Of a stretch of DNA of 64,000 bases, positions 4,946-48,387 are shown one piece after another; position 1 is the stretch's first letter, and each line of letters starts with the position of its first letter. The notes under the pieces were generated by a model, which had not been told where the DNA came from, did not search any database, and was given only the letters and a program-made list of their open reading frames with translations. Both the position numbers and the translations under genes were made by a program. This DNA is from Ramlibacter albus (lineage in GTDB: Bacteria > Pseudomonadota > Gammaproteobacteria > Burkholderiales > Burkholderiaceae_C). The stretch is taken from contig NZ_JACORU010000012.1 of the NCBI RefSeq assembly GCF_014297445.1, forward strand, positions 1 through 64,000. The letters are read 5' to 3'.

Positions 4946-6966
<2,021 letters not shown>

Positions 6967-6970
<4 letters not shown>

Positions 6971-26963: not shown

Positions 26964-29792
26964 TCAGGCCGTGCCGAGCGCCGCCAGCGCCTGCCCGCCG
27001 CCGAAACTCACCTGCTTCGGCGCCTCACCGCCCGCCGTCACCCGCACCGCGCAGTACTTCAGCTCCGGGATCTTCGCCACCGGGTCGAACTTGTCGTTGG
27101 TCACGCGGTTGATCGCCGCCTCGTAGTAGCAGAAGGGCACGAACACCGCGCCGCGCGGCGAGCTGTCGTCGGCGCGGCCGTACAGCGTGATCTTGCCGCG
27201 GCGCGACTCGATCGTGAGCAAGCCGCCAGGCTGCACGCCGAGCGCGTCGAGGTCCAGCGGATGCACGAGTGCCACCGGGTCGGGCTCGATCGCATCGAGC
27301 ACGCCCGCACGCCGCGTCATGCTGCCGGTGTGCCAGTGTTCGAGCTGCCGGCCGGTGATCAGCACCATCGGGTACTCGGCATCGGGCCGCTCGGCAGCGG
27401 GGATGATGTCCGCGGGCACGAAGCGCGCCACGCCGCCTTCGCGCGGGAAGTCGTGGTCGAACACGACGGACGTGCCGGGGTCGCCTTCCTTGACGCACGG
27501 GTAGGTCACTGCGTGCTGCCGCTCCAGCCGGTCCCACGTGATGCCGCCGATGCTGGGCATGGTGTGCCGCATCTCGTCGAACACTTCGCTCACGTGCTCG
27601 TAATTCCAGTCGAGCCCGATGCGCCGCGCCATCTCCTGGATGATCCACAGGTCCTGCTTCGCATCGCCGGGGGGCTGCAGCGCCTGGCGGCCCAGTTGCA
27701 CGAGCCGGTCGGTGTTGGTGAAAGTGCCGGTCTTCTCCGGGAAGGCACTGGCGGGCAGCACCACGTCGGCGAGGCAGGCCGTCTCGGTGAGGAAGATGTC
27801 CTGCACGACGAGGTGGTCCAGCTTGGCCAGCGCCTCGCGCGCATGGTTCGCGTCGGGGTCGGACATCGCGGGGTTCTCGCCCATGATGTACAGGCCCTTG
27901 ACCTTGCCTTCGGCGGCGGCGTGCATCACTTCCACCACCGTCAGGCCCGGCTTGTCGTCGAGCGTGCCCGGCTTCAGTTTCCACATCTGCTCGAACTTCG
28001 CACGCACCTGCGGCTCGATTACCTTCTGGTAATCGGGGAACATCATCGGGATCAGGCCCGCGTCCGATGCACCCTGCACGTTGTTCTGGCCGCGCAGCGG
28101 GTGCAGCCCGGTGCCGGGGCGGCCGATCTGGCCCGTCATCAGCGCGAGCGCAATCAGGCAGCGCGCGTTGTCCGTGCCGTGCACGTGCTGCGACACGCCC
28201 ATGCCCCAGAGGATCATCGAGCCCTTCGACGTGGCGTACGTGCGCGCCACTTCGCGCAGGGTTTCGGCGGGGATGCCGCAGATCGGCGCCATCGCCTCGG
28301 GGCTGTAGCCCTCGACGTTCTTCTTCAGCTCGTCGTAGCCGATGGTGCGGCTCTTGATGAAGTCCTCGTTGACCAGGCCCTCGTGCACGATGACGTGCAT
28401 CATCGCGTTGAGCATGGCCACGTCGGTGTCGGGCTTGAACTGCAGGAAGCGCCACGCCAGCCGCGACAGGTCCGACTTGCGCGGGTCCATCACGATCAGC
28501 TTCTTGCCGTTCTTCGCGGCGTTCTTCATCCACGTCGCCGCGACGGGGTGGTTCACCGTGGGGTTGGCGCCGATGACGATGATCACGTCGGCCTGCGTCA
28601 CGTCCATCACGGGGTTGGACACGGCGCCGGAGCCGATGCCTTCCAGCAGCGCGGCCACCGACGACGCGTGGCACAGGCGCGTGCAGTGGTCGACGTTGTT
28701 GCTGCCGAAGCCGGTGCGCACGAGCTTCTGGAACAGGTAGGCCTCTTCGTTGCTGCCCTTGGCGGAGCCGAAGCCGACGAGGGCCTTGGGGCCATGCGTG
28801 TCGCGGATCTTCTTCAGGCTGTTGCCGGCGAGGTCGAGCGCTTCTTCCCAGCTCGCTTCGCGGAAGTACTCGTGCACGCGTGCGGGGTCGATCGTTTCGC
28901 CGGGGACCTTGGGCACGCCCGCCTTGCGGATCAGCGGCTTCGTGAGGCGCTGCGGGTGGCTCGCGTAGTCGAAGCCATAGCGGCCTTTCACGCACAGGCG
29001 CCCGTGGTTCGCGGGGCCGTCGCGGCCTTCCACGTAGAGGATCTTGTTGTCCTTGATGTTGTACGTCAGCTGGCAGCCGACGCCGCAATACGGGCACACC
29101 GACTCCACCTTCTTGTCCGGCACCTGCAGGCCGACGCCGCGCGCGGGCATCAGCGCGCCGGTGGGGCAGGCCTGCACGCACTCGCCGCAAGCGACGCAGG
29201 TGGACACACCCATCGGGTCGTCCATGTCGAAGACGATCTTCGAATGTTCGCCGCGGAAGGCCAGGCCGATCACGTCGTTGACCTGCTCGTCGCGGCAGGC
29301 GCGCAGGCATCGCGTGCACTGGATGCAGGCGTCGAGGTTCACCGCGATGGCGGGGTGCGAGACGTCCTGCGGAACCTGCACGCGCGAGGGGAAGCGCGGC
29401 TTGCCGACGCCGAGCTTCGCTGACCACAGGTCCACTTCGTTGCGGCGCGTGTACTCCGCCTCGGGCATGTCGGCCTGCAGCAGCTCCAGCACCATCTTCT
29501 GCGACTTGACGGCCCGGTCGCTGTCGGTGGTCACCTCCATGCCGTTGGCCGGGTTGCGGCAGCAGCTCGGGGCGAGGACGCGCTCGCCCTTGATCTCCAC
29601 CATGCACGCGCGGCAGTTGCCGTCGGGGTCGAGGCCGGGCTTGTAGCACAGGCGCGGCACTTCCACGCCTTCGCGGTCGGCGACCTGGATGATGGTTTCG
29701 CTTGCCTTCGCCGTGACTTCCTTGCCGTTGAGCTTGAAGGTGACGGTGGGCGCGTCGAGTTGCGCGAGTTCGGCTCGGGTGACGGCGTTCAT
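26964..29792 (-). CDS. fdsA: NAD-dependent formate dehydrogenase, molybdenum catalytic subunit
   Basis: A 942-residue cytoplasmic enzyme that oxidises formate to CO2. An N-terminal [2Fe-2S] domain ('CYKPGLDPDGNCRACMVEI', 'CCRNP'), two [4Fe-4S] sites ('CIQCTRCLRAC', 'CVACGECVQACPTGAL') and a further cluster next to the cofactor ('CPYCGVGCQL') are all present. The molybdopterin domain has Cys rather than selenocysteine as metal ligand ('DHCTRLCHASSV'). It overlaps the fused diaphorase subunit gene by ATGA. Electrons would go through that subunit to NAD. The usual accessory genes fdsC and fdsD do not follow. Confidence 0.95.
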   Translation of the reverse strand: MNAVTRAELAQLDAPTVTFKLNGKEVTAKASETIIQVADREGVEVPRLCYKPGLDPDGNCRACMVEIKGERVLAPSCCRNPANGMEVTTDSDRAVKSQKMVLELLQADMPEAEYTRRNEVDLWSAKLGVGKPRFPSRVQVPQDVSHPAIAVNLDACIQCTRCLRACRDEQVNDVIGLAFRGEHSKIVFDMDDPMGVSTCVACGECVQACPTGALMPARGVGLQVPDKKVESVCPYCGVGCQLTYNIKDNKILYVEGRDGPANHGRLCVKGRYGFDYASHPQRLTKPLIRKAGVPKVPGETIDPARVHEYFREASWEEALDLAGNSLKKIRDTHGPKALVGFGSAKGSNEEAYLFQKLVRTGFGSNNVDHCTRLCHASSVAALLEGIGSGAVSNPVMDVTQADVIIVIGANPTVNHPVAATWMKNAAKNGKKLIVMDPRKSDLSRLAWRFLQFKPDTDVAMLNAMMHVIVHEGLVNEDFIKSRTIGYDELKKNVEGYSPEAMAPICGIPAETLREVARTYATSKGSMILWGMGVSQHVHGTDNARCLIALALMTGQIGRPGTGLHPLRGQNNVQGASDAGLIPMMFPDYQKVIEPQVRAKFEQMWKLKPGTLDDKPGLTVVEVMHAAAEGKVKGLYIMGENPAMSDPDANHAREALAKLDHLVVQDIFLTETACLADVVLPASAFPEKTGTFTNTDRLVQLGRQALQPPGDAKQDLWIIQEMARRIGLDWNYEHVSEVFDEMRHTMPSIGGITWDRLERQHAVTYPCVKEGDPGTSVVFDHDFPREGGVARFVPADIIPAAERPDAEYPMVLITGRQLEHWHTGSMTRRAGVLDAIEPDPVALVHPLDLDALGVQPGGLLTIESRRGKITLYGRADDSSPRGAVFVPFCYYEAAINRVTNDKFDPVAKIPELKYCAVRVTAGGEAPKQVSFGGGQALAALGTA

Positions 29793-31489
29793 GACAGCTC
29801 GTGCGGGAAGTATTTGATGACGCAGTCGACCGGGTTCGGCGCTGCCTGTCCCAACCCGCAGATCGACGCATCGCGCATCACCTGCGAGAGATCGGCCAGC
29901 GTTGGCAGGTCCCACTTCGGCTGGTCCATCAACGCCACCGCCTTCGCGGTCCCGGCCCGGCAAGGCGTGCACTGCCCGCACGACTCCTCGCGGAAGAACC
30001 GCATCGTGTTCTTCGCGGCCATCGTGGCGCTGTCCTTGTCCGAAAGCACGACCACAGCCGCGGACCCGATGAAGCAGCCGTACGGCTGCAGTGTGTCGAA
30101 ATCCAGCGGGATGTTGTTCATGCTGGCCGGCAGGATGCCGCCCGACGCGCCACCGGGCAGGTAGCCGTAGAACTTGTGGCCGTCGAGCATGCCGCCGCAG
30201 TGCTCCTCGATCAGCTCCTGGATCGTCACCCCCGCGGGTGCGAGCTTCACGCCGGGGTTCTTGACACGTCCGGAGACCGAGAACGAGCGCAAGCCCTTGC
30301 GCCCGTTCGCGCCCTGCGACGAGAACCAGTCCGCGCCGCGCTCCAGCAGCTCGCGCACCCAGTACAGCGTCTCGAAGTTGTGTTCGAGGGTGGGGCGGTT
30401 GAACAGGCCCACTTGCGCAACATAGGGCGGGCGCAGCCGCGGCATGCCGCGCTTGCCCTCGATCGATTCGATCATCGCGGACTCTTCGCCGCAGATGTAT
30501 GCACCCGCGCCGCGCCGCAACTCGATTTTCGGCAAGCCTGCGCTCGGCGGGTCGGCTTGCAGGCGGTCCAGCTCCTGCTGCAGCAGCGCGCGGCAGCCGT
30601 GGTATTCGTCGCGCAGGTAGATGTAGATCGCGTCGATGCCGACCGCCCACGCGGCGATCAGCATGCCTTCGAGGAAGCGATGCGGATCGCGCTCGAGGTA
30701 AACGCGGTCCTTGAAGGTGCCGGGCTCGCCCTCGTCGATGTTCACCGCCATCAGGCGCGGCGCCGGCTCGGCGCGCACGATCTTCCACTTGCGCCCTGCG
30801 GGGAAGCCCGCGCCGCCCAGGCCGCGCAGGCCCGACGATTCGAGCGTGCCGATCACGTCGTCGACTTTGCGCTTGCCGGCGAGGCACTCTTCCAGCAGCT
30901 TGTACCCGCCCGAGGCGCGGTACTGCGACAGGCCGATGTAGCCTTCGGGCTCGTGCTTCGTCGCGCCGGTCTTCACCGCGTCGACCACCTTCTCGGAGGT
31001 TGCGCACGGCACCGGGTTCTGTCCAACCACAGCCGCAGGCGCCTGCTCGCATCGCCCGATGCAAGGCGCAGCCACAACGCGCACGTCAGGGCCGAGCAGC
31101 GCAGGCAGCTTCGCCAGCAGCTTCTGTGCCCCCGCCATCTCACAGGACAACCCATCACACACGCGCACCGTCAACGCAGGCGGCGCCGTGTCGGCTTCCT
31201 TCACGATGTCGAAGTGGTGGTAGAACGAAGCGACTTCGTACACCTCCGCCTGCGGCAGGCGCATCTCGTCCGCCAATGCGGCAAGGTGCGGGGCAGAAAG
31301 ACAACCGAAACGGTCCTGCAGCTTGTGCAGGTGCTCGATCAGCAGGTCGCGGCGCAGCGGGGCGTCGCCGAGTGTTTCGCGCACTTCGGCAACGGCCACC
31401 GCGTCGGGGCGCCGGCCCTTCGGCCCCTTGCGCTTGCGCTCGCGCAAGTCCTCGCCACCGGCGACGATAGGGATGACTCGCGCTTGCAT
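29789..31489 (-). CDS. fdsB: Formate dehydrogenase diaphorase, fused gamma-beta subunit (NuoE-NuoF type)
   Basis: A 566-residue fusion. Residues about 30-165 are NuoE/FdsG-like with [2Fe-2S] cysteines ('CDGLSCEMAG', 'PCIGRCEQAP'). Residues about 170-566 are NuoF/FdsB-like with FMN and NADH sites ('GLRGLGGAGFPAGRKW', 'GAGAYICGEESAMIES') and a [4Fe-4S] motif ('ESCGQCTPCRAGT'). In many bacteria these are two genes (fdsG, fdsB). Here one protein would pass electrons from FdsA to NAD. The start at 31489 has AAGGA upstream, 7 bp after the acyl-CoA ligase gene. Confidence 0.93.
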   Translation of the reverse strand: MQARVIPIVAGGEDLRERKRKGPKGRRPDAVAVAEVRETLGDAPLRRDLLIEHLHKLQDRFGCLSAPHLAALADEMRLPQAEVYEVASFYHHFDIVKEADTAPPALTVRVCDGLSCEMAGAQKLLAKLPALLGPDVRVVAAPCIGRCEQAPAAVVGQNPVPCATSEKVVDAVKTGATKHEPEGYIGLSQYRASGGYKLLEECLAGKRKVDDVIGTLESSGLRGLGGAGFPAGRKWKIVRAEPAPRLMAVNIDEGEPGTFKDRVYLERDPHRFLEGMLIAAWAVGIDAIYIYLRDEYHGCRALLQQELDRLQADPPSAGLPKIELRRGAGAYICGEESAMIESIEGKRGMPRLRPPYVAQVGLFNRPTLEHNFETLYWVRELLERGADWFSSQGANGRKGLRSFSVSGRVKNPGVKLAPAGVTIQELIEEHCGGMLDGHKFYGYLPGGASGGILPASMNNIPLDFDTLQPYGCFIGSAAVVVLSDKDSATMAAKNTMRFFREESCGQCTPCRAGTAKAVALMDQPKWDLPTLADLSQVMRDASICGLGQAAPNPVDCVIKYFPHELS

Positions 31490-31496
31490 TGCTTCC

Positions 31497-33638
31497 TTAG
31501 GACTTCGGGATCAGTCCGGCCGCACGGGCCCACTGGTACTTGGCGCCGAGGATCTCGACGGGAATCTCCGTCGAGTACGCATACGCCGGGATGCCGTTCT
31601 CGTACAGGTACTGCGCGGCTTCCTCGACTTCGACGTCGCCCGCGAGCGAAGCGACCACGGGCTTGATCTTGCCCTTCTCCTTCATCTCGTTGACCACCGT
31701 CACCATGTTCTTCGCGAACACCATGGGCGGCGTCACGATGGTGTGCCAGTAGCCCAGGATCAGCGCATGGATGCGGTCGTCCTCCAGGCCCAGCTTCACG
31801 GTGTTCATGTAGGTGATGGGCGGCTCGCCGCCGGTGATGTCCACCGGGTTGCCGGCCGCGCCGAACGGCGGGATGAACTTGCGGAAGGCTGCGTCCAGGT
31901 CCGCGGGCATCGGCTTGAGCAGCTTCAGGCCGTTGTCCACGCACGCGTCGGACAGCAGCACGCCCGAGCCGCCCGCGCCGGTGATGATCACGACGTTCTC
32001 GCCCTTGGGCGTGGGCAGGATCGGCACGCCGCGCGCGAAGTCCAGCATCTGGCGCAGGCTGCGCGCGCGGATCACGCCGCTCTGGCGCAGCACGTCCTCG
32101 TAGATCTTGTCGGTGCCGGCGACGGCGCCGGTGTGCGAAGCAGCGGCGGCAGCGCCCATTGCCGTGCGGCCGGCCTTGAGCATGATCACCGGCTTCTTCT
32201 TCGAGACGCGCTTGGCGACTTCCGCGAAAGCGCGGCCGTCCTTCAGGTCTTCCGCGTGCTGCGCGATCACCTTCGTGTTGTCGTCCTGCTCGAAGAACAG
32301 CAGCAGGTCGTCCTCGTCGATGTCGCTCTTGTTGCCCAGGCCGACGATGGCCGACACGCCCATCTTCGCGCTGCGCGAGTAGCCGATGATCGCCATGCCG
32401 ATGCCGCCGGACTGCGACGAGAGAGCCGTGGAGCCCTTGTAGTCGTAGGCCGTGCAGAACGTGGCGCACAGGTTCGAAGGCGTGTAGTAGAAGCCGTAGA
32501 TGTTCGGCCCCATCAGGCGGATGTTGTACTCGCGCCCGATCTTCTGCAGCTCCTCCTGCCCCTCGATGTTGCCGGTCTCGCCGAAGCCGGACGGGATGAG
32601 GATCGCGCCCGCGATCTTCTTCTCACCGCACTCCTTCAGCGCACCGGCCACCAGCGGCGCGGGAATCGCGAAGACGGCCGTGTCGATCTCCTCCGGCACG
32701 TCCTTGACGCTCTTGTACGCCGTGAGGCCCATGATCTCGCCGCCCTTGGGCGTGATCGGGAAGATCTTGCCCTTGTAGCCGCCGTTGATGAGGTTCTTCA
32801 TCACCGAGTTGCCGATCTTGCCGGCCTGGTCCGATGCGCCGATCACCGCCACGGCCTTGGGCTTCATGATGCGGTTCATCGACGCGACCACGTCCTTCTC
32901 GTCGGGGCGATAACGCGGCGCCTTCGGCGCGAAGTTCACGACGATGCGCACGTCGGCGGCGATCGCGCCTTCCTCGCTGGCGAAGATGGGGTTGAGGTCC
33001 ATCTCGGCGATCTCGGGGAAGTCCGTCACCAGCTGCGACACGCGCACGATCACGTCCTGCAACGCCTCGCGGTTGACCGGCTTGCCGCCGCGCACGCCGC
33101 GCAGCATCTCGGCCGCCTGGATGCCGTCGAGCATCGATGCCGCATCGTCCTTTGTCGCGGGCGCGAGGCGGAAGGTCACGTCCTTCAGCACTTCCACCAG
33201 CACGCCGCCCATGCCGAAGGCCACGAGCTTGCCGAAGCTGTTGTCGGTCATCGCGCCGACGATCACTTCCTGCCCGCCCTTGATCATCTGCTGCACCTGC
33301 ACGCCCAGGATCTTCGCGTCGGCCTTGTACTTCTTCGCGTTCGCAACGATCTGCTCGTAAGCGGTGACGGCGTCGTCGGCGTTCTTCACGCCCACCACCA
33401 CGCCGCCGGCTTCGGTCTTGTGCAGGATGTCGGGCGAAACGATCTTCATCACGACCGGGAAGCCCATCCCCGAAGCGAGCTTCGATGCTTCCGCAGCACT
33501 GGATGCCACGCCTTCGCCGGGCACCTTGATGCCGTAGGCATCGCACAACAGCTTGCCTTCGGGCGCCGTGAGCGAGTCACGACCCGACTTCTTGACCTCG
33601 TCGAGGACCTGACGGACTTTGGCCTTGTCGTAGCTCAT
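31497..33638 (-). CDS. NDP-forming acyl-CoA synthetase with N-terminal ATP-grasp domain
   Basis: A 713-residue enzyme. The ATP-grasp domain comes first (about 15-230, 'FPVVMKIVSPDILHKTEAGG'), then a CoA-binding Rossmann domain (about 245-340, 'AVAVIGASDQAGKIG') and two ligase domains, with the phosphohistidine motif 'SHTGAVAGTD'. Most homologues have the ATP-grasp part at the C-terminus or as a separate subunit. Placed between frc and formate dehydrogenase, it may make oxalyl-CoA (or another CoA ester that primes Frc) at the cost of ATP. The substrate is inferred from the operon only. The start at 33638 has AAGGAG 7 bases upstream. Confidence 0.9.
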   Translation of the reverse strand: MSYDKAKVRQVLDEVKKSGRDSLTAPEGKLLCDAYGIKVPGEGVASSAAEASKLASGMGFPVVMKIVSPDILHKTEAGGVVVGVKNADDAVTAYEQIVANAKKYKADAKILGVQVQQMIKGGQEVIVGAMTDNSFGKLVAFGMGGVLVEVLKDVTFRLAPATKDDAASMLDGIQAAEMLRGVRGGKPVNREALQDVIVRVSQLVTDFPEIAEMDLNPIFASEEGAIAADVRIVVNFAPKAPRYRPDEKDVVASMNRIMKPKAVAVIGASDQAGKIGNSVMKNLINGGYKGKIFPITPKGGEIMGLTAYKSVKDVPEEIDTAVFAIPAPLVAGALKECGEKKIAGAILIPSGFGETGNIEGQEELQKIGREYNIRLMGPNIYGFYYTPSNLCATFCTAYDYKGSTALSSQSGGIGMAIIGYSRSAKMGVSAIVGLGNKSDIDEDDLLLFFEQDDNTKVIAQHAEDLKDGRAFAEVAKRVSKKKPVIMLKAGRTAMGAAAAASHTGAVAGTDKIYEDVLRQSGVIRARSLRQMLDFARGVPILPTPKGENVVIITGAGGSGVLLSDACVDNGLKLLKPMPADLDAAFRKFIPPFGAAGNPVDITGGEPPITYMNTVKLGLEDDRIHALILGYWHTIVTPPMVFAKNMVTVVNEMKEKGKIKPVVASLAGDVEVEEAAQYLYENGIPAYAYSTEIPVEILGAKYQWARAAGLIPKS

Positions 33639-33648
33639 GGTTCGCTCC

Positions 33649-34896
33649 TTAGATGACTTTGGACTCTTTGAGGTCGGCAATCTGGGCCTGCGTGTAGCCC
33701 AGTTGCTCGAGCACTTCGACGGTGTGCTCGCCCAGCAGGGGCGAGCGCGTCACTTCGGTCGGGCTGTCGGACAGCTTGATCGGGTTGCCCACCGACAGGT
33801 ACTTGCCGCGCTTGGGGTGATCGACTTCCACGATCGTGCCCGTCTCGCGCAGCGACGGTTCCTCGGCCAGCTCCTTCATCGACAGGATCGGCCCGCAGGG
33901 GATGTCGTACTTGTTGAGGATCTCCATCGCCTCGAACTTCGTCTTGGTCTTGGTCCACTCCTCGATGCGCGAGAAGATGGTCTTCAGGTGCGGCAGCCGC
34001 GCCTTGGGCGTGCTGTAGCTCGGGTCGGTGATCCACGTTTCCTCGCCGATCACCTTGCAGATCGACTCCCACACCGGCGCCTGCGTGATGAAGTAGATGT
34101 AGGCGTTGGGGTCGTGCTGCCAGCCCTTGCACTTGAGGATCCAGCCCGGCTGGCCGCCGCCCGATGCGTTGCCCGCGCGCGGCACGGCTTCGCCGAACTC
34201 GCCTTCGGGGTACTGCGGGTACTCCTCGAGCACGTGCTTGCGGTCCAGGCGCTGCTGGTCGCGCAGCTTCACGCGGCAGAGGTTGAGCACGGCGTCCTGC
34301 ATGGCGGCGAGCACGCGCTGGCCGCGGCCGGTTTTCTCGCGCTGGAACAGCGCCGTGACGATGCCCAGGCACAGGTGCAGGCCGGTGCCGCTGTCGCCGA
34401 TCTGCGCACCGGTCACCAGCGGCGGGCCGTCGTCGAAGCCGGTGGTGCTGGCGGCGCCGCCCGCGCATTGCGCGACGTTCTCGTAGACCTTGCAGTCCTC
34501 GTACGGGCCGGGGCCGAAGCCCTTGACCGACGCCATGATCATGCGCGGGTTGATCTTCTGGATGTTCTCCCAGCCGAAACCCATGCGGTCCAGCGCGCCG
34601 GGGGCGAAGTTCTCCACCAGCACGTCGCACTCCTTGATCAGGCGCGTGAGGATCTCCTTGCCCTTGGGGTCCTTCGTGTTGACGGTGATGGACCGCTTGT
34701 TGTGGTTCAGCATCGTGAAGTAGAGGCTGTCCACGCCGTCGATGTCGCGCAGCTGCCCGCGCGTGGCGTCGCCTTCGCCCGCCTTCTCCACCTTGATGAC
34801 GTCCGCGCCGAACCAGCCGAGCAGCTGCGTGCAGGTGGGGCCCGACTGCACGTGCGTGAAGTCGAGGATCTTGATGCCGTCGAGTGCCTTGCCCAT
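33649..34896 (-). CDS. frc: Formyl-CoA:oxalate CoA-transferase
   Basis: A 415-residue class III CoA-transferase that moves CoA from formyl-CoA to oxalate. It is recognisable along its length ('[20 protein letters not shown]', '[14 protein letters not shown]', '[15 protein letters not shown]' with the likely catalytic Asp, 'GEETWITDP', '[11 protein letters not shown]'). The length is close to characterised Frc. I start at ATG 34896 behind GGAGAAAGAG rather than TTG 34911. It lies between oxc and the acyl-CoA ligase on one strand with gaps of 10-18 bp. Confidence 0.95.
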
Positions 34897-34914
34897 GTGC
34901 TCTTTCTCCAAAAG

Positions 34915-36642
34915 TTATTTCTTCCTGGCCATGGCCGGGTTCAGGCTGGTGATGCGCCCGCTTTCCGTGCCCGCCGTCTCGTCGATGATCGCGTTGATGA
35001 GGGTCGGTTTGCCCGAAGAAACCGCCTCATCGATCGCCGCACGCAGCTCCGCACGCGACGCGGCGCGCACGCCCACGCCGCCGAAGGCCTGCATCATCAG
35101 CTCGTATTTCGCGTCCTTGACGAACACCGTGGGCGCCACTTCCGTGCCGCGCGGGTTGGTGTCCGTGCCCTTGTAGATGCCGTTGTTGTTGAACACCACC
35201 ACGCACACGGGCAGGTTGTAGCGGCACACCGTCTCCACTTCCATGCCGGAGAAGCCGAAGGCGCTGTCGCCGCACACGGCGATGACGGGCTTGCCGGTCG
35301 CGACCGCGGCCGCAACGGAGTAGCCCATCCCGATGCCCATGATGCCCCACGTGCCCACGTCGATGCGCTTGCGCGGCTCGTACATGTCGACGATGGAGCG
35401 GCAGAAGTCCAGCGTGTTCGCGCCCTCGTTGACGAGGATGGCGTCGGGCCGCTCCTTGATCTTGTCCTTGATGACCGACAGCGCCGTCTGGAAGGTCATC
35501 GGGTTCGTGTCCTTGGCCATGTTCTCGGCCATCTTGGACAGGTTCTTGTCCTTCCTGTCCGCGATGGCGCCGGTCCAGTCGGACGGCGGCTTCTGCCAGC
35601 TGCTGCCGATGGCCGCGTTCATCGCGCAGATGCACGAGCCGATGTCGCCGATCACGGGCGCGGCCGTGGCGACGTTGCTGTCCGCCTCGGTCGGCGAGAT
35701 GTCGACCTGGATGAACTTCGCCTTCGACGTTTCCTTGGACGACGCGGCGCCCCAGGTCTTGCCCTTGGCGTGCGACAGCAGCCAGTTCAGGCGCGCGCCG
35801 ACCAGCATCACGACGTCGGCTTCGGCCAGCACGTACGACCGCGCAGCGGACGCGCACTGCGGGTGCGTGTCGGGCAGCAGGCCCTTGGCCATCGACATCG
35901 GCAGGTAGGGCACGCCGGTGGTTTCGATGAACTTCCTGATCTCGGCGTCGGCACGCGCATAGGCGGCGCCCTTGCCGAGGATCACCAGCGGCTTCTTCGC
36001 GGACTTGAGCAGGTCGATGGCGCGGGACACCGCGTCCGGCGCGGGGATCTGCTTCGGCGCCGGGTCGACGACTTCGATCAGCGACTTCCTGCCTACGTCC
36101 TTCGGCAGCGTCTGCGCGAACAGCTTGGCCGGCAGGTCGAGGTACACGCCGCCGGGGCGGCCGGACACGGCGGAGCGGATGGCGCGCGCGATGCCCACGC
36201 CGATGTCCTCGGCATGCAGCACGCGGAAAGCCGCCTTGCACAGCGGCTTGGCGATGGCCAGCTGGTCCATCTCCTCGTAGTCGCCCTGCTGCAGGTCGAC
36301 GATCTCGCGCTCGCTGGAGCCGGAGACCAGGATCATCGGGAAGCAGTTGGTGTTGGCGTTGGCCAGCGCCGTCAGGCCGTTCAGGAAACCGGGCGCCGAC
36401 ACCGTGAAGCAGATGCCGGGCTTGCCGGTGAGGAAGCCGTGCGCGGCGGCGGCGTTGCCCGCGTGCTGCTCATGGCGGAACGAGATCACCTTCATGCCTT
36501 CGGCCTGCGCCATGCGCAGGAAGTCCGTGATGGGGATGCCGGGGAGGGCGTAGATGGTGTCGATGCCGTTCAACTTCAGCGCTTCGATCACCAGGTGGAA
36601 GCCATCGGTGGTTTCGGCGGCGGCTTGGACTTCGTTCGTCAT
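34915..36642 (-). CDS. oxc: Oxalyl-CoA decarboxylase
   Basis: A 575-residue thiamine-diphosphate enzyme converting oxalyl-CoA to formyl-CoA and CO2. It has '[19 protein letters not shown]' and '[15 protein letters not shown]' (catalytic Glu region) near the N-terminus, and the cofactor-binding motif '[19 protein letters not shown]...NNN' near residue 450. Length and sequence fit Oxc rather than other members such as acetolactate synthase. It is the first gene of the oxalate operon. A -10-like TATCAT and an Fnr-type box lie upstream, with GGAG 10 bases before the ATG. Confidence 0.96.
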
Positions 36643-36669
36643 GTCAAGGGTTCTCCGAGGGTCGGGGCT

Positions 36670-36675
36670 ATGATA
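36670..36675 (-). promoter_or_regulatory. Probable -10 element of the oxc operon (TATCAT)
   Basis: On the minus strand TATCAT matches TATAAT at five of six bases. A transcript starting 7 bases further on (about 36663) would have a 21-base leader containing GGAG. The Fnr-type box is then centred about 42 bases upstream of the start, the usual position for class II activation. Confidence 0.55.
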
Positions 36676-36698
36676 GGAATCGCCCTTTCGGAAAGCTC

Positions 36699-36712
36699 TT
36701 GACCGCAGTCAA
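36699..36712. promoter_or_regulatory. Fnr-type operator TTGAC-CGCA-GTCAA between oxc and its divergent regulator
   Basis: Perfect 5-bp arms with a 4-bp spacer, the geometry of Crp/Fnr-family sites. It lies 57 bp before the oxc start and 25 bp before the regulator start. It could activate oxc and repress the regulator. The same element occurs at 41332-41345 before tctC. Confidence 0.75.
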
Positions 36713-36736
36713 TTTTTGAAAATTTCCCTTTAAGCC

Positions 36737-37345
36737 GTGTCCTCCATCGAACAGCATCCCGAGCGCAACGTCATCCGCGTGCAACTGGCGCACAACGTGG
36801 TGCTCAAGGGCATGACCGCGGCCCAAATGGCAGAGCTGGAGCCGCTCCTCGTCGTGGTGGATTGCCAGAAAGGGGAGGGGTTGCTGCAGCAGGGCGTGCA
36901 CGAGATGGAGCAGTACTTCATCCTCGACGGCATCTTGAAGCGCGTGGTTTCCAACCAGGAGGCCAAGGAGATGATCCTGCGCTTTGCCCACGAAGGCGAG
37001 ATGGAAACCAGCTATGCGGCGTGGCGGCTGGGCACGCCGGCGCCCTACAGCATCGTCTGCGTCACCAAGGCGCGAGTGGCCAAATTACCGCTGCGCGACT
37101 GGGTGGCATTCATCGAACGGCACCCGGGGCTGAAACAAACTTTCGAGTACGAGGTGATGCACCACATGAGCGAGATCATGGGGCACACGATCACGCTGCA
37201 CCTCCTCGATGCGCCGGGGCGGTTCAAGCGCTTCATGCGCAAGCACGCCGAGCTGTTCGAACGCATCCCTAAAAAGGAACTGGCAACTTACCTCAACCTT
37301 TCCGCCGAAACGCTTTCGCGGCTGAAGCAGCGCGGGAAGATCTAG
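36737..37345 (+). CDS. Crp/Fnr-family transcriptional regulator, likely controlling oxalate genes
   Basis: A 202-residue protein. The cyclic-nucleotide-binding-type beta roll is at about 25-120 ('MEQYFILDGILKRVVSNQEA'). The C-terminal HTH has the recognition helix 'LSAETLSRLKQRGKI'. The E-x-x-S-R pattern in that helix is the one Fnr uses to read TTGA half-sites, which fits the box beside this gene. No Cys cluster for an iron-sulfur centre is present (only two isolated Cys), so it is not an oxygen-sensing Fnr. The effector might be oxalate, a CoA ester or redox. GTG start at 36737, no clear ribosome site. The stop overlaps that of the convergent gene (CTAG). Confidence 0.9.
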   Translation: MSSIEQHPERNVIRVQLAHNVVLKGMTAAQMAELEPLLVVVDCQKGEGLLQQGVHEMEQYFILDGILKRVVSNQEAKEMILRFAHEGEMETSYAAWRLGTPAPYSIVCVTKARVAKLPLRDWVAFIERHPGLKQTFEYEVMHHMSEIMGHTITLHLLDAPGRFKRFMRKHAELFERIPKKELATYLNLSAETLSRLKQRGKI

Positions 37346-38175
37346 GTTTTGCTGTAGGTGAACCGGCGCGAGATCGACATCACTCGCAGCTGGTTGTCCA
37401 CATTCCCCGTCCCGGCCACGACGCCCGCCACGCGGGCGACCTCGGCCAGTTCCTGGTCGTTCACCACCATGCCCGAAAGCGTCACCTTGCCGCCTTCGGA
37501 ATCGATGTCGACATTGGTGCTGGCCGTCGATTCGTTGGCCTTCAGCGCGGCGCGCACGCGCGCGTTCAGTGCCAGCGCCTCCAGGCGCGCACGCGAGGCG
37601 TCCGTCTCCTGGAACTCGGGCCGCGCCGCCAGCGCAAGGATCTGCGCCACCGCGCTGTCCACCGTGATGCGATCCATGTTGATGACCAGGTCGTAGAGCA
37701 CCGGGTCGCCCCAGTTCACGCCGAACTGCGCGCGCATGCGGCTGGCGTGCGCCTCGTCGCTTCGGCGCACTTCCGCTTCCGCCGCCGCACGGTCTTCGGT
37801 GCCGAGGTTCTCCATCAGCCACGCCACGCGGTTGGCGAAGGAGCGCGTGATGCGCACGCTCACCACATGCGACACCGGCCGCAGCAGGAGTGTCGCACCC
37901 CAGCCGCGCAGCACCACGTTGCCGCGCTGCGCCTGCGAGAACACTTCCTCGGCCGTGTAGACGGCCACGCTCTTCGCGTCGGTGGAGAGGCGCTCCACGA
38001 GGCCGGCCTTGCCGCCACGCAGGCGGTTGATCAGGCTCGTGGGCACCTGCATGCGCTCGGCCACGTTCTCGACGACTTCGTGTCGCGTCACCGCGAGGCC
38101 GGCGGTCTCCCCCAGCCGTACGGCCACGTCCTTGGCCAGCGAGCCCATTTCCTGGGTGAGGGCGATGACCGGCAT
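37342..38175 (-). CDS. Cytidylate-kinase-like P-loop protein fused to a BON domain
   Basis: A 277-residue protein. About residues 1-190 resemble the cytidylate-kinase-like family ('IALTQEMGSLAKDVAVRLGE', 'RHEVVENVAERMQVP', 'VLRGWGATLLL', 'VRITRSFANRVAWLM', 'YDLVINMDRITVDSAV'). Residues about 205-270 form a BON domain ('ALKANESTASTNVDIDSEGG', 'GTGNVDNQLRV'). The first P-loop Gly-rich stretch is replaced by 'TQEMGSLAKD', as in this subfamily. It starts 1 bp after tctA and so belongs to the transporter operon. The combination of a nucleotide-kinase fold with a BON domain, which usually binds phospholipid or protein, has no function I can name. Confidence 0.85.
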   Translation of the reverse strand: MPVIALTQEMGSLAKDVAVRLGETAGLAVTRHEVVENVAERMQVPTSLINRLRGGKAGLVERLSTDAKSVAVYTAEEVFSQAQRGNVVLRGWGATLLLRPVSHVVSVRITRSFANRVAWLMENLGTEDRAAAEAEVRRSDEAHASRMRAQFGVNWGDPVLYDLVINMDRITVDSAVAQILALAARPEFQETDASRARLEALALNARVRAALKANESTASTNVDIDSEGGKVTLSGMVVNDQELAEVARVAGVVAGTGNVDNQLRVMSISRRFTYSKT

Positions 38176-38176
38176 G

Positions 38177-39706
38177 TCAGTCCACCGGTTGCTCTTGCGC
38201 GAATTCCACCGGCTTGGGCTTGCGCAGCTTCTGCACCAGCTTCGACAGCAGCGGCCAGAACAGCAGCACCAGCGCCAGCGTGGTGATGGAGCCCACCAGC
38301 ATGTTGGACCACATGATGCCCAGGTCGCCCTGCGACACGAGCATGGCCTGGCGGAACGAGTCCTCGGCCTTGTCGCCCAGCACCAGCGCCAGCACCAGCG
38401 GCGCCAGCGGGTAATCGAGCTTCTTGAAGATGTAGCCGATGACGCCGAAGCCGAGCATGAACCACACGTCGAGCATCGCGTTGTGCACGGTGTATGCGCC
38501 GATCACGCAGATGACGATGATCACCGGCGCGATGATCGCGAAGGGCACGCGCAGGATCGCGGCGAAGAGCGGCACGGTCGTCAGCACCACCAGCAGGCCG
38601 GCGATGTTGCCCAGGTACATGGAGGCGATGAGGCCCCACACGAAGTCCTTCTGCTCCACGAAGAGCAGCGGGCCGGGCTGCAGGCCCCAGATCAGCAGGC
38701 CACCCAGCAGCACGGCCGCCGTGGGCGAGCCGGGGATGCCCAGGGCCAGCATGGGCAGCAGCGCGCTCGTGCCGGCCGCGTGGGCCGCCGTCTCGGGCGC
38801 GACCACGCCCTCGATCTGGCCAGTGCCGAACTTCGCGCCGTCGCGGGACATTTTCTTCGCCAGGCCGTACGACATGAACGACGCAGGCGTCGCGCCACCG
38901 GGCGTGATGCCCATCCAGATGCCGACCAGCGAGCTGCGCAGGGACGTCACCCAGTAGCGCGGCAACTCCTTCCAGGTCTCCCACACCACCTTCGTGTTCA
39001 GCTTGGCGCTCTTGCCGCTGAAGGCCAGGCCTTCCTCCATCGACAGCAGGATCTCGCCGATGCCGAAAAGGCCGATGACCGCGATCAGGAAATCGAAGCC
39101 GCGCATCAAATCCGGGATGCCGAAGGTGAGGCGCAATTGGCCGGTCACGGTGTCCATGCCCACGGCCGCCAGCGCGAAGCCTATGGCCATCGAAGCGAGG
39201 ATCTTGAACGGCGACCCCTTGCCCATGCCCACGAAACTGCAGAAGGTGAGCAGGTAGACCGCGAAGAACTCCGGCGGCCCGAACTTCAGCGCGAACTTCG
39301 CGACCAGCGGCGCGAGGAAGGTGATCATCACCACCGCGACGAAGGCGCCGACGAAAGACGACGTGAACGCCGCCGTGAGCGCGCGGCCCGCCTGCCCCTG
39401 CTGTGCCATCGGGTAGCCGTCGAACGTGGTCGCCACCGACCAGGGCTCGCCCGGTATGTTGAACAGGATCGACGTGATCGCCCCGCCGAACAGCGCGCCC
39501 CAGTAGATGCACGACAGCATGATGATCGCCGACGTGGGCGACATGCTGAAGGTCAGCGGCAGCAGGATGGCCACGCCGTTGGCGCCGCCGAGCCCCGGCA
39601 ATACGCCGATGAGTACGCCGAGCACGATGCCCACCAGCATCAGGCCGATGTTGGTGGGCGACAGGACGACCTGGAAGCCGTGGAACAGTGCGTTGAGTTC
39701 TTCCAT
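38177..39706 (-). CDS. tctA: Tripartite tricarboxylate transporter, large membrane subunit TctA
   Basis: A 509-residue inner-membrane protein with about a dozen hydrophobic helices. Family signatures include 'VLIGVLPGLGGANGVAILLP', 'GAITSILFNIPGEPWSVAT', 'GMGKGSPFKI' and 'MGITPGGATPASFMSYGLAK'. It would form the sodium- or proton-driven channel of a TctABC importer. It follows tctB by 5 bp. In this setting the substrate is plausibly oxalate or a related dicarboxylate, suggested by the shared operator with the oxalate operon. Confidence 0.95.
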   Translation of the reverse strand: MEELNALFHGFQVVLSPTNIGLMLVGIVLGVLIGVLPGLGGANGVAILLPLTFSMSPTSAIIMLSCIYWGALFGGAITSILFNIPGEPWSVATTFDGYPMAQQGQAGRALTAAFTSSFVGAFVAVVMITFLAPLVAKFALKFGPPEFFAVYLLTFCSFVGMGKGSPFKILASMAIGFALAAVGMDTVTGQLRLTFGIPDLMRGFDFLIAVIGLFGIGEILLSMEEGLAFSGKSAKLNTKVVWETWKELPRYWVTSLRSSLVGIWMGITPGGATPASFMSYGLAKKMSRDGAKFGTGQIEGVVAPETAAHAAGTSALLPMLALGIPGSPTAAVLLGGLLIWGLQPGPLLFVEQKDFVWGLIASMYLGNIAGLLVVLTTVPLFAAILRVPFAIIAPVIIVICVIGAYTVHNAMLDVWFMLGFGVIGYIFKKLDYPLAPLVLALVLGDKAEDSFRQAMLVSQGDLGIMWSNMLVGSITTLALVLLFWPLLSKLVQKLRKPKPVEFAQEQPVD

Positions 39707-39711
39707 GGCCC

Positions 39712-40224
39712 TCAATACCCCGTGAACGAGAGCAGGTTGACCGCGCCCTTGAAGAGCGGCACCTTGAACCAGACCTCGAACATCATGAAGAACAGGCCCA
39801 TGATGATCACCGCCGCGACGATGCTCTTGGGCCACGCGAACTTGCCGAGCACCGCCATGAAGACCGCGATGTACACGGCCGACGCGATGTAGACGCCGAA
39901 CACCTGCACCGCGCCGATGTACAGCGCCGCGGGCACCAGCACCGTCAGCACCTGCTTGAGCTGCTCGTTGTCGACGAAGACGTCGGTGCGGCGCCTGCGC
40001 AGCGCCTGCAGGAAGATGCCCGCGCCCGAGACGGTGAGGATCAGCCCGATGTAGAACGGGAAGTAGCCCGGCCCGGGCCCGTCGCTGGTCCACTTTGAGC
40101 CGAGGTTCCAGCTGCCGATGAGCACCGTCAGGCCGAAGGCCGCCACCAGGGCGGCCACGACGAGCTCGACGGTGTGGGTGCCGATGCCGCGCGGCTCCTC
40201 GCCGCCTTGTTGCGTCGCGTCCAT
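39712..40224 (-). CDS. tctB: Tripartite tricarboxylate transporter, small membrane subunit TctB
   Basis: A 170-residue protein with four predicted membrane helices ('VELVVAALVAAFGLTVLIGS', 'GYFPFYIGLILTVSGAGIFL', 'VLVPAALYIGAVQVFGVYIA', 'SIVAAVIIMGLFFMMFEVWF'). It includes the typical 'DGPGPGYFPFY' region. It starts 4 bp after tctC and precedes tctA in the usual order. Confidence 0.93.
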   Translation of the reverse strand: MDATQQGGEEPRGIGTHTVELVVAALVAAFGLTVLIGSWNLGSKWTSDGPGPGYFPFYIGLILTVSGAGIFLQALRRRRTDVFVDNEQLKQVLTVLVPAALYIGAVQVFGVYIASAVYIAVFMAVLGKFAWPKSIVAAVIIMGLFFMMFEVWFKVPLFKGAVNLLSFTGY

Positions 40225-40228
40225 CTGC

Positions 40229-41242
40229 TTACTTCGCCAGGAAGCCGGCGTCCTTCATCAGCTCGCGGTGCATCTGCTCCGCCTTGCCCAGCCACTGGAA
40301 GTACGCGTCGCCGTCCATGTAGGTCTGGTTGAACGCGCCTTTCTCCATGTAGTCCTTCCACTCCGGCGTGGCGCGGACTTTCTTGAGCAGGTCCACGTAG
40401 AACTGCGTCTGCTCCTTCGTGACGCCCGGCGCCATGAAGATGCCCCGCAGCATGGTGTAGGTCGTCGGCACGCCCGACTCCTTGCAGGTGGGCACGTCCT
40501 GCCATGACTGCGTGTCGGTGATCTTGGCGGGGTAGGGCATGCGCTTGTCGTCGAACACGCACAGCGCCTTGAGCTGCTTGGCGCGCCACTGCGCCACCGC
40601 TTCGATCGGGTTGTTGACCGTGGAGTCCACGTGCTTGCCCACCAGCTGCACGGCCACCTCGCCGCCGCCCTTGAACGGGATGTAGATGAACTTGGTGCCG
40701 GTGGCCTTCTCGATGCCGACGGTGAGGATCTGGTCTTCCTGCTTGGAGCCGGTGCCGCCCATCTTCATCTTGTTGGGGCCGGCCGCTTTCACGGCGTCGA
40801 GGTATTCCTTCGCGGTCTTGTACGGCGTGTCCGCGTTGACCCACAGCACGAAGTTGTCCAGGGCCATCATCGACACGGGCGTCATGTCCCGCCAGTTGAA
40901 AGGCACGCCGGTTGCCAGCGGCGTCGTGAACAGGTTGGACAGCGTGACGACGATCTTGTGCGGGTCGCCCTTGGCGCCCTTGATGTCGAGGAAGCCTTCC
41001 GCGCCCGCGCCGCCCGACTTGTTGACGACGACCATGGGCTGCTTCATCAGGTTGTGCTTCACCACCACGCCCTGGATCAGCCGCGCCATCTGGTCGGCGC
41101 CGCCGCCGGTGCCCGCGGGCACGACGAATTCGACGGGCTTGGTGGGCTCCCACGCCGCCTGCGCGAGCGGCGCGAAGAGGCCTGAAACGGCAAGGGCGAG
41201 CGCGGTCGCCAGGCGGGGGAAACGTGAACTACGAGGATGCAT
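40229..41242 (-). CDS. tctC: Tripartite tricarboxylate transporter, periplasmic binding protein TctC
   Basis: A 337-residue exported solute-binding protein. The signal peptide runs to about residue 28 ('LALAVSGLFAPLAQA'). Mature features include 'PVEFVVPAGTGGGADQMARL', 'VVNKSGGAGAEGFLDIKGAK', 'KFIYIPFKGGGEVAVQLVGK' and 'GVPTTYTMLRGIFMAPG'. AGGAG lies 10 bases before ATG 41242. It heads the operon tctC-tctB-tctA-kinase/BON. An Fnr-type box lies 90 bp upstream. The ligand is unknown. Oxalate is a reasonable guess from the shared regulation. Confidence 0.95.
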   Translation of the reverse strand: MHPRSSRFPRLATALALAVSGLFAPLAQAAWEPTKPVEFVVPAGTGGGADQMARLIQGVVVKHNLMKQPMVVVNKSGGAGAEGFLDIKGAKGDPHKIVVTLSNLFTTPLATGVPFNWRDMTPVSMMALDNFVLWVNADTPYKTAKEYLDAVKAAGPNKMKMGGTGSKQEDQILTVGIEKATGTKFIYIPFKGGGEVAVQLVGKHVDSTVNNPIEAVAQWRAKQLKALCVFDDKRMPYPAKITDTQSWQDVPTCKESGVPTTYTMLRGIFMAPGVTKEQTQFYVDLLKKVRATPEWKDYMEKGAFNQTYMDGDAYFQWLGKAEQMHRELMKDAGFLAK

Positions 41243-41331
41243 CGCTTTTGTCTCCTGCTGTTGTGTTCGTGCCGGCCCTGTGCCCGGGCCTGTGCACATG
41301 CGATGCTCACTCCAACGCGCCGCGCGCGCTC

Positions 41332-41345
41332 TTGACTGCGGTCAA
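41332..41345. promoter_or_regulatory. Second Fnr-type operator TTGAC-TGCG-GTCAA, upstream of tctC
   Basis: Perfect 5-bp arms identical to those of the oxc site. Its centre is 97 bases before the tctC start. It overlaps the stop codon of the small gene at 41342-41551. I see no good -10 at the class II distance, so the promoter position is uncertain. Confidence 0.7.
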
Positions 41346-41551
41346 GAACGCGGGTTTGTACCGAGGGGAGGAATCTGTGTCGAAACGAAACGCGTGCCCA
41401 GCGTTTCGATCGCCTTCACCAGGAAATCGGCGTCGTAGGCACGCAGCAGGTGCGGATGTTCACGTTCGATGTATTGCCGGACGGGCTCACTTGCATCCCA
41501 GTGCCAGTCGAGGCCGAGTTCTTCCAGCGCGAGCTGTTGAGTAGCGGTCAT
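41342..41551 (-). CDS. Small protein of unknown function (69 residues)
   Basis: Acidic soluble protein beginning 'MTATQQLALEELGLDWHWD'. A strong ribosome site (AAAGGAG, 7-8 bases before ATG) supports it as a real gene. No family is recognised. It is divergent from the LysR gene (99-bp spacer) and ends inside the Fnr-type box in front of tctC. Confidence 0.65.
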   Translation of the reverse strand: MTATQQLALEELGLDWHWDASEPVRQYIEREHPHLLRAYDADFLVKAIETLGTRFVSTQIPPLGTNPRS

Positions 41552-43459: not shown

Positions 43460-44038
43460 TCAGGCGCCGAATCCTTCATTGATACAGGTCAAGCCATGGG
43501 TCGGATACGGTTCGAACTTGTGGGTTTGAACGTTCACGAACCACGCCCGATGGATCTTGCGCAACCGCGCCTTCTGTTCTCCCTTCACGACTGCAATGAC
43601 TTCAGGGGCCTCAACACCTCCCCTTTCGCACAAGCCGGCCATCGCAACAACATGGCCCCTCGGTATGTCCGGCTCCGGCATGACGGCCACGACCTCCCAA
43701 CTGGGTTTTCCCGCCCGGTCGCGCGAGATCAGCTTCTGCAACCACCACATGCGTCCTCTTGGCGAGCTCACCTCGGCAATAGCATATTCGCTGTCGGCCT
43801 GGATCCTTAGCATGGAACCGCCAAGGTCTTCGTGATCTGCAGGTATGGGCGGGACCCGAAGCCCGACATATGGAGAAGATTCGCCGGGGATACTCGATGC
43901 GCAAAACAATGCAGTTGAGGCGACCAGTGTGATGAGACCCCAGCGCACGAACGGCGAACGGGCTGGCACGCAGCGCGCAAACGGAGCAGGAACGTGGGTG
44001 ATCGCGTCCAATTGCAAGCTGGGTTCGGGCAGGCTCAT
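43460..44038 (-). CDS. Hypothetical membrane-anchored protein
   Basis: A 192-residue protein. An N-terminal hydrophobic helix ('FVRWGLITLVASTALFCASS') follows about 25 residues and suggests a single-pass anchor or long signal peptide. The rest is probably periplasmic ('SEYAIAEVSSPRGRMWWLQK', 'WFVNVQTHKFEPYP'). No family is recognised. The start at 44038 ('MSLPEPSLQ') or 44050 ('MIRCMS') is uncertain, and neither has a clear ribosome site. It is divergent from the first higBA copy. Confidence 0.6.
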   Translation of the reverse strand: MSLPEPSLQLDAITHVPAPFARCVPARSPFVRWGLITLVASTALFCASSIPGESSPYVGLRVPPIPADHEDLGGSMLRIQADSEYAIAEVSSPRGRMWWLQKLISRDRAGKPSWEVVAVMPEPDIPRGHVVAMAGLCERGGVEAPEVIAVVKGEQKARLRKIHRAWFVNVQTHKFEPYPTHGLTCINEGFGA

Positions 44039-44117: not shown

Positions 44118-44665
44118 GCGTAACGCGACGCTATACAATTTGGGGTATGATCAAGTCGTCGTCTTGGCGCGCAGCTCGGGCGCCTGAACATGGCTCGCGC
44201 ACCGCTGCACATGAACGTGCCGGGGTGGAAGCTGCACCCGCTCACGGGCGGGCTTGCAGGCCATTGGGCCGTGTGGGTCAGCGGAAGCTGGCGCATGACT
44301 TTCGCGTTCGAAAATGGCGACGCCGTTCTCGTGGAATATCAGGACTATCACTGAAGGAGTACCGTGATGGCACGCATGCATAACCCCCCACATCCCGGCC
44401 TGACGCTGCGCGACGATGTCCTGCCGGCGCTCGGCCTGAGCGTCACTGAAGCGGCGGCGCAACTCGGAGTGACCCGCGTGGCTCTGTCGCGGGTGTTGAA
44501 CGGACGTGCCGCAATCTCGCCCGAGATGGCGCTGCGGCTGGAAGCGTGGCTCGGCGAGGAAAACGGAGGAGCCGCGCACCTGTGGCTGGCGGAGCAGTCC
44601 GCCTATGACGAGTGGCAGGCGCGCAAGGCGCTCAAGGCAAAGCCGCTGCGCGTGAAGCGGGTCGA
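44118..44665 (+). repeat. Left copy of a directly repeated higBA locus
   Basis: Similarity to 48388-49006 begins at 'agcgtaac', just before a shared 'gacgctatacaatt' promoter-like stretch, and ends inside the antitoxin 3' end. This copy lacks about 71 bp of the toxin gene. Confidence 0.8.
44147..44354 (+). pseudogene. higB: higB-type toxin gene with an out-of-frame internal deletion
   Basis: ATG 44147 begins as a HigB toxin ('MIKS'). Compared with the second copy about 71 bp are then missing, and the rest of the toxin continues in another frame ('RLGAQLGRLNMARA...VPGWKLHPLTGGLAGHW', 'WRMTFAFENGDAVLVEYQDY') to the stop at 44354. Only an internal ATG could give a fragment of about 55 residues. 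The RelE/HigB fold would lack its first strand and helix, so activity is unlikely. Confidence 0.8.
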
Positions 44666-44687
44666 AATGCCGAGCACTACTTCCTGA
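44367..44687 (+). CDS. higA: HigA-family antitoxin, copy 1
   Basis: A 106-residue Xre-type HTH protein of the HigA (plasmid maintenance) family ('[20 protein letters not shown]', '[20 protein letters not shown]', '[20 protein letters not shown]'). AGGAG lies 8 bases before ATG 44367. It is nearly identical to copy 2 over the first 90 or so residues, but ends differently ('VEMPSTTS'). It overlaps the 3' end of the convergent ankyrin gene by 11 bp. It should still bind DNA although its toxin partner is broken. Confidence 0.92.
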
Positions 44688-47136: not shown

Positions 47137-47143
47137 AGCGCTC

Positions 47144-48241: not shown

Positions 48242-48387
48242 GAGGAGTGGCCGTTGAAAAGCGCAAAGCCTATCGGCCGCTGCGGGCGATCGCACCAGAC
48301 CTTAGTCTCGCGAAGCGCCCTTAATTCGCCTGCGTCCCTCACTTGATCCCGCTTCCTGACCCCTGGATCTCTCTGGCAGCCTGATGG

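Follow-up and report, generated by a model that had tools for sequence, protein, structure and literature searches.

A conserved palindromic operator upstream of oxalate-oxidation and Tct transporter genes in Ramlibacter albus, and its predicted Crp/Fnr-superfamily regulator

What connects an operon for oxalate breakdown with a neighboring transporter operon of the tripartite tricarboxylate (Tct) type in the soil bacterium Ramlibacter albus? Both lie on a 64,000-nucleotide stretch of contig NZ_JACORU010000012.1 (positions 1 to 64,000; hereafter the window), on either side of a gene for a small regulator of the Crp/Fnr superfamily. Oxalyl-CoA decarboxylase is encoded by oxc (34915..36642, minus strand; TIGR03254, 961.7 bits, cut-off 739.4) and formyl-CoA transferase by frc (33649..34911, minus strand; TIGR03253, 732.2 bits, cut-off 504.2). 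The two genes stand side by side, both above their NCBIfam equivalog cut-offs, which identifies type II oxalate degradation. The transporter is encoded in a single gene run on the minus strand, comprising the periplasmic binding protein gene tctC (40229..41242; PF03401, 108.1 bits, cut-off 27), tctB (39712..40224; PF07331, 69.9 bits, cut-off 29.1) and tctA (38177..39706; PF01970, 510 bits, cut-off 28.9), and all three products exceed their Pfam cut-offs, which identifies a tripartite tricarboxylate transporter. A reading of the sequence alone had proposed that the divergent regulator controls both operons through one operator, and that oxalate (or a related dicarboxylate) is the likely transport substrate. 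We consider it highly probable that the protein is a local regulator devoted to oxalate use and acts as a class II activator of oxc-frc and tctCBA, with Tct importing oxalate.

Operator conservation and promoter geometry

Two exact matches to TTGAC-N4-GTCAA, to which no strand is assigned, occur at the two operons: TTGACCGCAGTCAA at 36699..36712, in the intergenic region between the regulator gene and oxc, and TTGACTGCGGTCAA at 41332..41345, upstream of tctC. The perfect palindromes of the sequence-only reading were thus exact and correctly placed. The two are reverse complements of each other and have 16 bases in common after one is turned. Boxes with at most one mismatch number six in the window against 0.91 expected, a count that was reached in none of 100 shuffles; one such box, TTGATACAGGTCAA (43479-43492), has no tie to oxalate genes. 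The whole 6.15-Mb genome holds 12 TTGAC-N4-GTCAA sites, compared to two for a reversed control pattern. In this genome-wide search, which the earlier reading had proposed as a check, only the two window sites share an identical N4 core among the 12; the box itself is not unique. One further site lies 34 bases upstream of an FNR gene whose product has an N-terminal cysteine cluster, and cytochrome-c-like genes are found near two more, as judged by reading of open reading frames (ORFs) with no family search. The box class therefore looks common to an apparent FNR regulon and non-exclusive to oxalate genes, because similar sites adjoin genes that look FNR-controlled.

A scan of a species genome collection returned 130 relatives of the regulator, of which the best 80 were kept, giving 81 loci with the window. 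The 80 named loci come from Ramlibacter, Polaromonas, Curvibacter, Herminiimonas, Oxalicibacterium, Massilia, Collimonas and other genera, and the best named match among them is that of Ramlibacter pallidus (92%). On the divergent side of the regulator, TTGA-N6-TCAA is present in all 81 loci and the strict form in 73. In the 300 bases upstream of tctC, a relaxed box occurs in 54 of 57 testable promoters and a strict one in 39. The corresponding values in first-order shuffles are 0.8% and <0.1%. Across the 80 named loci, the density of strict boxes is 112.5 per 100 kb in the promoter flanks of the regulator, oxc, frc, tctC and OxlT genes versus 1.1 elsewhere. An operator common to oxc and tctC is thus conserved along with the regulator across genera. 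One of the strict boxes found elsewhere, in Oxalicibacterium, is upstream of what reads as a gene for a periplasmic binding protein, after which comes a gene resembling the formate dehydrogenase subunit of the window.

The spacing between box and promoter is conserved as well. The predicted -10 element of oxc, TATCAT (36670..36675, minus strand), and a weaker predicted element of tctC, GAGCAT (41303..41308, minus strand), each lie 23 bases past their box. Across the loci, a NANNNT hexamer starts 22 or 23 bases past the box in 81/81 cases on the oxc side (TATGAT in 51, TATCAT in 18) and in 53/54 on the tctC side (GACCAT in 20, CACTAT in 8); for the two sides, the highest fractions among 300 shuffles were 0.27 and 0.33. 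This test was devised after the aligned promoters had been viewed and was not blind, and with an earlier, simpler -10 score no single offset stood out at tctC. Given the fixed spacing, the box is centered at -41.5 or -42.5 relative to the predicted start at both promoters; from the position of TATCAT and the predicted start, it lies at about -42.5 at oxc in the window. The class II distance that the sequence-only reading had assigned to oxc is therefore retained in all 81 loci, and a site near -41.5 with a matching -10 element marks both oxc and tctC as predicted class II activator-dependent promoters. With its poorer -10 element, tctC would depend more on the activator. The start of tctC is better placed at the ATG at 41242, preceded by AGGAG, than at the first ORF start at 41299. 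The possibility that the box is just an ordinary -35 element was considered and rejected for oxc and tctC, where it sits farther upstream than a -35 element would. At the regulator promoter, the left half-box could serve as a -35 element with a 17-base spacer, and the best hexamer offset, 9, was found in 21.9 of 75 (at most 8.0 in shuffles), an arrangement hinting at autorepression; in the window, however, this promoter lacks a good -10.

The regulator and the reading of the box

The regulator gene (36737..37345, plus strand) encodes 202 amino acids with a cNMP-binding-type barrel (PF00027, 34.7 bits, cut-off 27.5) and a helix-turn-helix, which places it in the Crp/Fnr superfamily. Its structure model (pLDDT 93.9) has the fold of CRP, GlxR and FNR, with a Foldseek E-value of 5.6e-14 to GlxR. 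The recognition helix carries E-x-x-S-R as in FNR, and E-T-L-S-R-L is invariant in 48/48 orthologues. There is no C-terminal wing after this helix: the model has no strand there, and the stop falls at the same place in 80/80 named orthologues. An FNR-type N-terminal cysteine cluster was not found, cysteine recurring only at positions 42, 96 and 107 and at none of them in all 48 orthologues. In an alignment to CRP, the Glu and Arg of the cAMP pocket, which we take to be E72 and R82, are aligned with Ser and Ala/Thr. By its modeled fold, the regulator is a member of the Crp/Fnr superfamily, yet neither CRP nor FNR. As a correction to the earlier reading, its likeness to FNR is confined to the recognition helix. 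Paralogues of the regulator with their own boxes lie near OxlT-like genes at L150 13711-14436 (43% identity) and L159 878-1528 (~33%), and their recognition helix reads E-T-L-C-R rather than E-T-L-S-R.

In 299 genomes of the family, a regulator orthologue (E < 1e-80) was found in 50 and oxc in 51, with both in 49 and one only in three. TctA at ≥83% identity occurs in 35 genomes, 34 of which have the regulator; in the exception, G107, tct lies at a contig end. For the presence of the box, we examined 20 family stretches from 19 genomes, chosen for a missing TctA or an odd arrangement, and 60 of 73 oxc loci found outside the family at the order level. In total, 78 oxc loci were counted (19/20 family, 59/60 order), leaving out L156 (no oxc) and L230 (no upstream region). 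A box lies within 350 bases of oxc in 61/61 loci with the regulator but in 5/17 without it, and whole-genome searches located the regulator elsewhere in four of the five genomes with a boxed oxc and no local regulator, the fifth being G052. Among the 12 unboxed oxc loci, nine belong to genomes without the regulator (G049, G584, G683, G453, G604, G607, G547, G415 and G539), and in G197 oxc sits after a boxed tctC-tctB-tctA run. Where the regulator lies apart from oxc (L147 and L158), each has its own box. For comparison, 20 of 79 places with TctA were taken as sister tct loci and 18 were counted, leaving out L165 (tctC start not covered) and L176 (regulator-positive genome). None of these 18 operons of regulator-less genomes has a box before tctC. 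At L176 (genome G029), tct is on a different contig from oxc and TTGACCTTGGTCAA precedes tctC. In the regulator-less oxc loci that have tct (L212, L216 and L220), no TTGAY-N4-RTCAA precedes tctC; L212 has one looser TTGA-N6-TCAA.

Since the motif class is shared with the apparent FNR regulon, FNR had to be tested as the protein reading the boxes, in which case both operons would be under general oxygen control and the local regulator incidental. FNR sites are of the TTGAT-N4-ATCAA type, the FNR gene of this genome is itself preceded by TTGAC-N4-GTCAA, and other such sites lie near cytochrome-c-like genes. We took this seriously for the FNR gene's own site. However, an FNR homologue is present in 13/13 genomes searched, including the nine in which oxc is found without the regulator and without a box, and for this reason FNR was set aside. 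The 18 unboxed sister tct operons and the separate boxes at L147 and L158 likewise argue against FNR, leaving it a very improbable reader, although some cross-binding by it may occur. Box presence is predicted by the regulator, not by FNR, which together with the fixed -10 spacing supports the earlier proposal that the divergent regulator would control both operons. A second possibility is that tct is governed mainly by a LysR-type protein, whose gene at 41651 lies near tct and faces away from it, an orientation that suits such a role, and whose homologues recur in many loci; the tctC box would then be secondary. Between this gene and tctC, a small ORF of ~69 amino acids (41345-41551, minus strand) has a stop overlapping the tctC-side box, matches nothing in Pfam or NCBIfam, and in relatives is again found next to the LysR gene. 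Many Polaromonas loci have no LysR homologue near their boxed tctC, elsewhere the LysR gene and its small ORF stand apart from tct, and the tctC -10 spacing is tied to the box in 53/54 promoters, making it very unlikely that LysR is the main control, although the two may act jointly.

The Tct transporter and its substrate

The 80 named loci divide into 56 with Tct only, 14 with an OxlT-like gene only, five with both, one with neither and four that are incomplete; an OxlT-like gene is thus present in 14 of 15 evaluable loci without Tct. The 17 selected family loci comprise 13 with OxlT, one with both, one with Tct and two with neither, and the 45 order-level loci comprise 31 with Tct, four with OxlT, seven with neither and three incomplete. 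The OxlT-like protein of L151 scores 610.3 bits against the oxalate/formate antiporter equivalog (cut-off 335) and matches the solved OxlT at 1.4e-66. Oxalate is bound in OxlT by Arg272 and Lys355 (PMC10070484). Counterparts of both residues are kept among the OxlT-like matches listed, except in a partial L159 hit that ends short of them.

Tct also occurs in a second oxalate-related setting. Of the 18 sister tct operons that come from genomes without the regulator, 17 adjoin genes for an AMP-forming ligase, homologous to oxalate-CoA ligase, and a PanE-family reductase. The four best Protein Data Bank (PDB) matches of the L166 ligase are all oxalate-CoA ligases (best 1.5e-129). No NCBIfam cut-off was reached by the sister-locus ligase, so its activity is deduced from the PDB relatives. 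L166 (7237-10627) and 16 other sister loci (L165-L184) combine tct with the ligase homologue and the PanE-type reductase, often with an FAH-family hydrolase, and the L166 type is a candidate decarboxylase-free oxalate operon. Tct accordingly accompanies two oxalate routes, the oxc-frc regulon and the ligase-homologue operons. Together with OxlT in the loci without Tct, this indicates that oxalate is the Tct substrate, in agreement with the sequence-only reading.

The remaining alternative concerns the cargo: Tct could import a related small acid, such as malonate, tartronate or glyoxylate, and be co-regulated with oxalate oxidation for some other reason. Binding proteins of the Tct family accept many carboxylates, TctC of the boxed group has no special residues, and the regulator-less sister locus L184 lacks the ligase. 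Conversely, in 14 named loci the place of Tct is taken by OxlT-like proteins that have counterparts of both oxalate-binding residues, and the oxalate-CoA-ligase homologue, whose activity is presumed from its relatives, stands beside 17/18 sister tct operons. We regard a different acid as unlikely.

Several observations nevertheless weigh against a dedicated oxalate regulon with Tct as its importer. Similar boxes also serve other genes of the same genome. Even a relaxed box is missing from 3/57 close tctC promoters, and at the order level, outside the close families, a box lies within 300 bases in 13/28 tctC promoters and is absent from 15/28. An oxc orthologue, present in 72/80 named loci, was not found in the other eight, some of which have frc adjoining the regulator. 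Genome G052 has a box although no regulator was found in a whole-genome search (its oxc lies at a contig end), and G474 and G349 carry the regulator yet have no box at oxc. Five named loci carry Tct and OxlT together, and under the thresholds used no TctC residue separates the boxed from the regulator-less groups. Moreover, the loci are related by descent and the box and locus counts are therefore not independent.

Neighboring genes, proposed mechanism and known systems

Downstream of oxc-frc on the same strand are an NDP-forming type acyl-CoA ligase gene (31497..33680, minus strand), with Pfam ligase domains above cut-off and NCBIfam cut-offs not reached, and formate dehydrogenase genes (26964..31489, minus strand). 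The latter include an alpha subunit (TIGR01591, 767.8 bits, cut-off 666.25) and a NuoE/NuoF-like subunit (29789-31489, minus strand) whose NuoF-like part is under its cut-offs. A gene fusing a cytidylate-kinase-like and a BON domain (37342-38175) lies between the regulator and tctA, as in many other regulator loci. Adjoining frc at L093 (7987-8415) and L147 (13098-13556) is a free-standing PAS-domain protein, possibly a sensor lacking an output domain, with homologues in 32/80 named regulator loci. At L163, an OxlT-type locus, a box at 5942 is upstream of a porin-like gene (6049-7635) whose L149 homologue matches PF00267, and the oxalate regulon may extend to outer-membrane entry. In Collimonas (L112 and L116), the gene divergent to that of the regulator codes for a TPP enzyme other than an oxc orthologue (29% over 222 amino acids in L112), and two OxlT-like genes are present. 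Further along the window (44151-48928), look-alike ORFs at 44151-44843/48422-48928 and 44677-47436/47144-48295 read as if duplicated.

We hypothesize that a dimer of the regulator binds the palindrome TTGACC-N2-GGTCAA (in looser form TTGAY-N4-RTCAA) and, from about -41.5/-42.5, would activate in class II fashion both tctCBA and oxc-frc with the downstream acyl-CoA ligase and formate dehydrogenase genes. TctC would catch periplasmic oxalate for import by TctAB, Frc would load it on CoA, Oxc would decarboxylate the product, and formate dehydrogenase would oxidize the formate. Because formate would be oxidized inside the cell, an importer could replace the formate-exporting antiporter OxlT. Oxalate itself or one of its CoA derivatives is the probable signal. 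Operator conservation, promoter geometry, the association of box with regulator and the alternation of Tct and OxlT are computational results, from which we infer binding, activation and the transport of oxalate.

The balance of evidence, in our view, leans towards a wider proposal as well, in which TctABC is an oxalate importer interchangeable with OxlT in a Burkholderiales-wide oxalate regulon, the wingless Crp/Fnr-type regulator running it responds to oxalate or oxalyl-/formyl-CoA and not to cAMP or oxygen, and the Tct family also serves a decarboxylase-free route through oxalate-CoA ligase and oxalyl-CoA reductase. If true, this would give the Tct-type transporter family a new job and assign a substrate to part of this large family, explain oxalate uptake in many aerobic oxalate users without OxlT, and allow the operator to predict oxalate genes in new genomes. 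Among the matches listed from the open literature, by title and opening of the abstract, neither a Tct importer of oxalate nor an oxalate regulator of the Crp/Fnr type appears. What is new is probably the pairing of known parts, and the transport substrate too. In a catalogue of oxalate metabolism in bacteria from 2026, OxlT is the single transporter listed, and the word "regulator" is absent from its main text (PMC12927642).

The regulator resembles E. coli CRP (1g6n), GlxR (3r6s) and A. fischeri FNR (5e44) in its barrel, long dimer helix and helix-turn-helix with E-x-x-S-R, with TM-scores of 0.72-0.81, and differs from CRP/FNR regulators in lacking the wing, the FNR cysteine cluster and the Glu/Arg of the CRP cAMP pocket. 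Its best PDB sequence match (7.3e-9) is a regulatory protein of Cytophaga hutchinsonii (3dn7), which is also short (~194 amino acids) with no long C-terminal tail and shares just ~20% identity in the fold alignment; we know of no operator or target for that protein. TctC matches chains of BugD (2f5x) and of a terephthalate-binding protein (8hka). Known Tct systems differ in that, within the literature covered, oxalate is not reported as a tested substrate of TctABC; a 2010 genome paper mentions it in passing, without a test, as one of the ligands that this receptor family might have (PMC2864759). A further parallel is OxlT, likewise predicted to let oxalate enter under control of this regulator. 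OxlT is a one-protein antiporter that exports formate, whereas Tct belongs to another family and imports by means of a binding protein.

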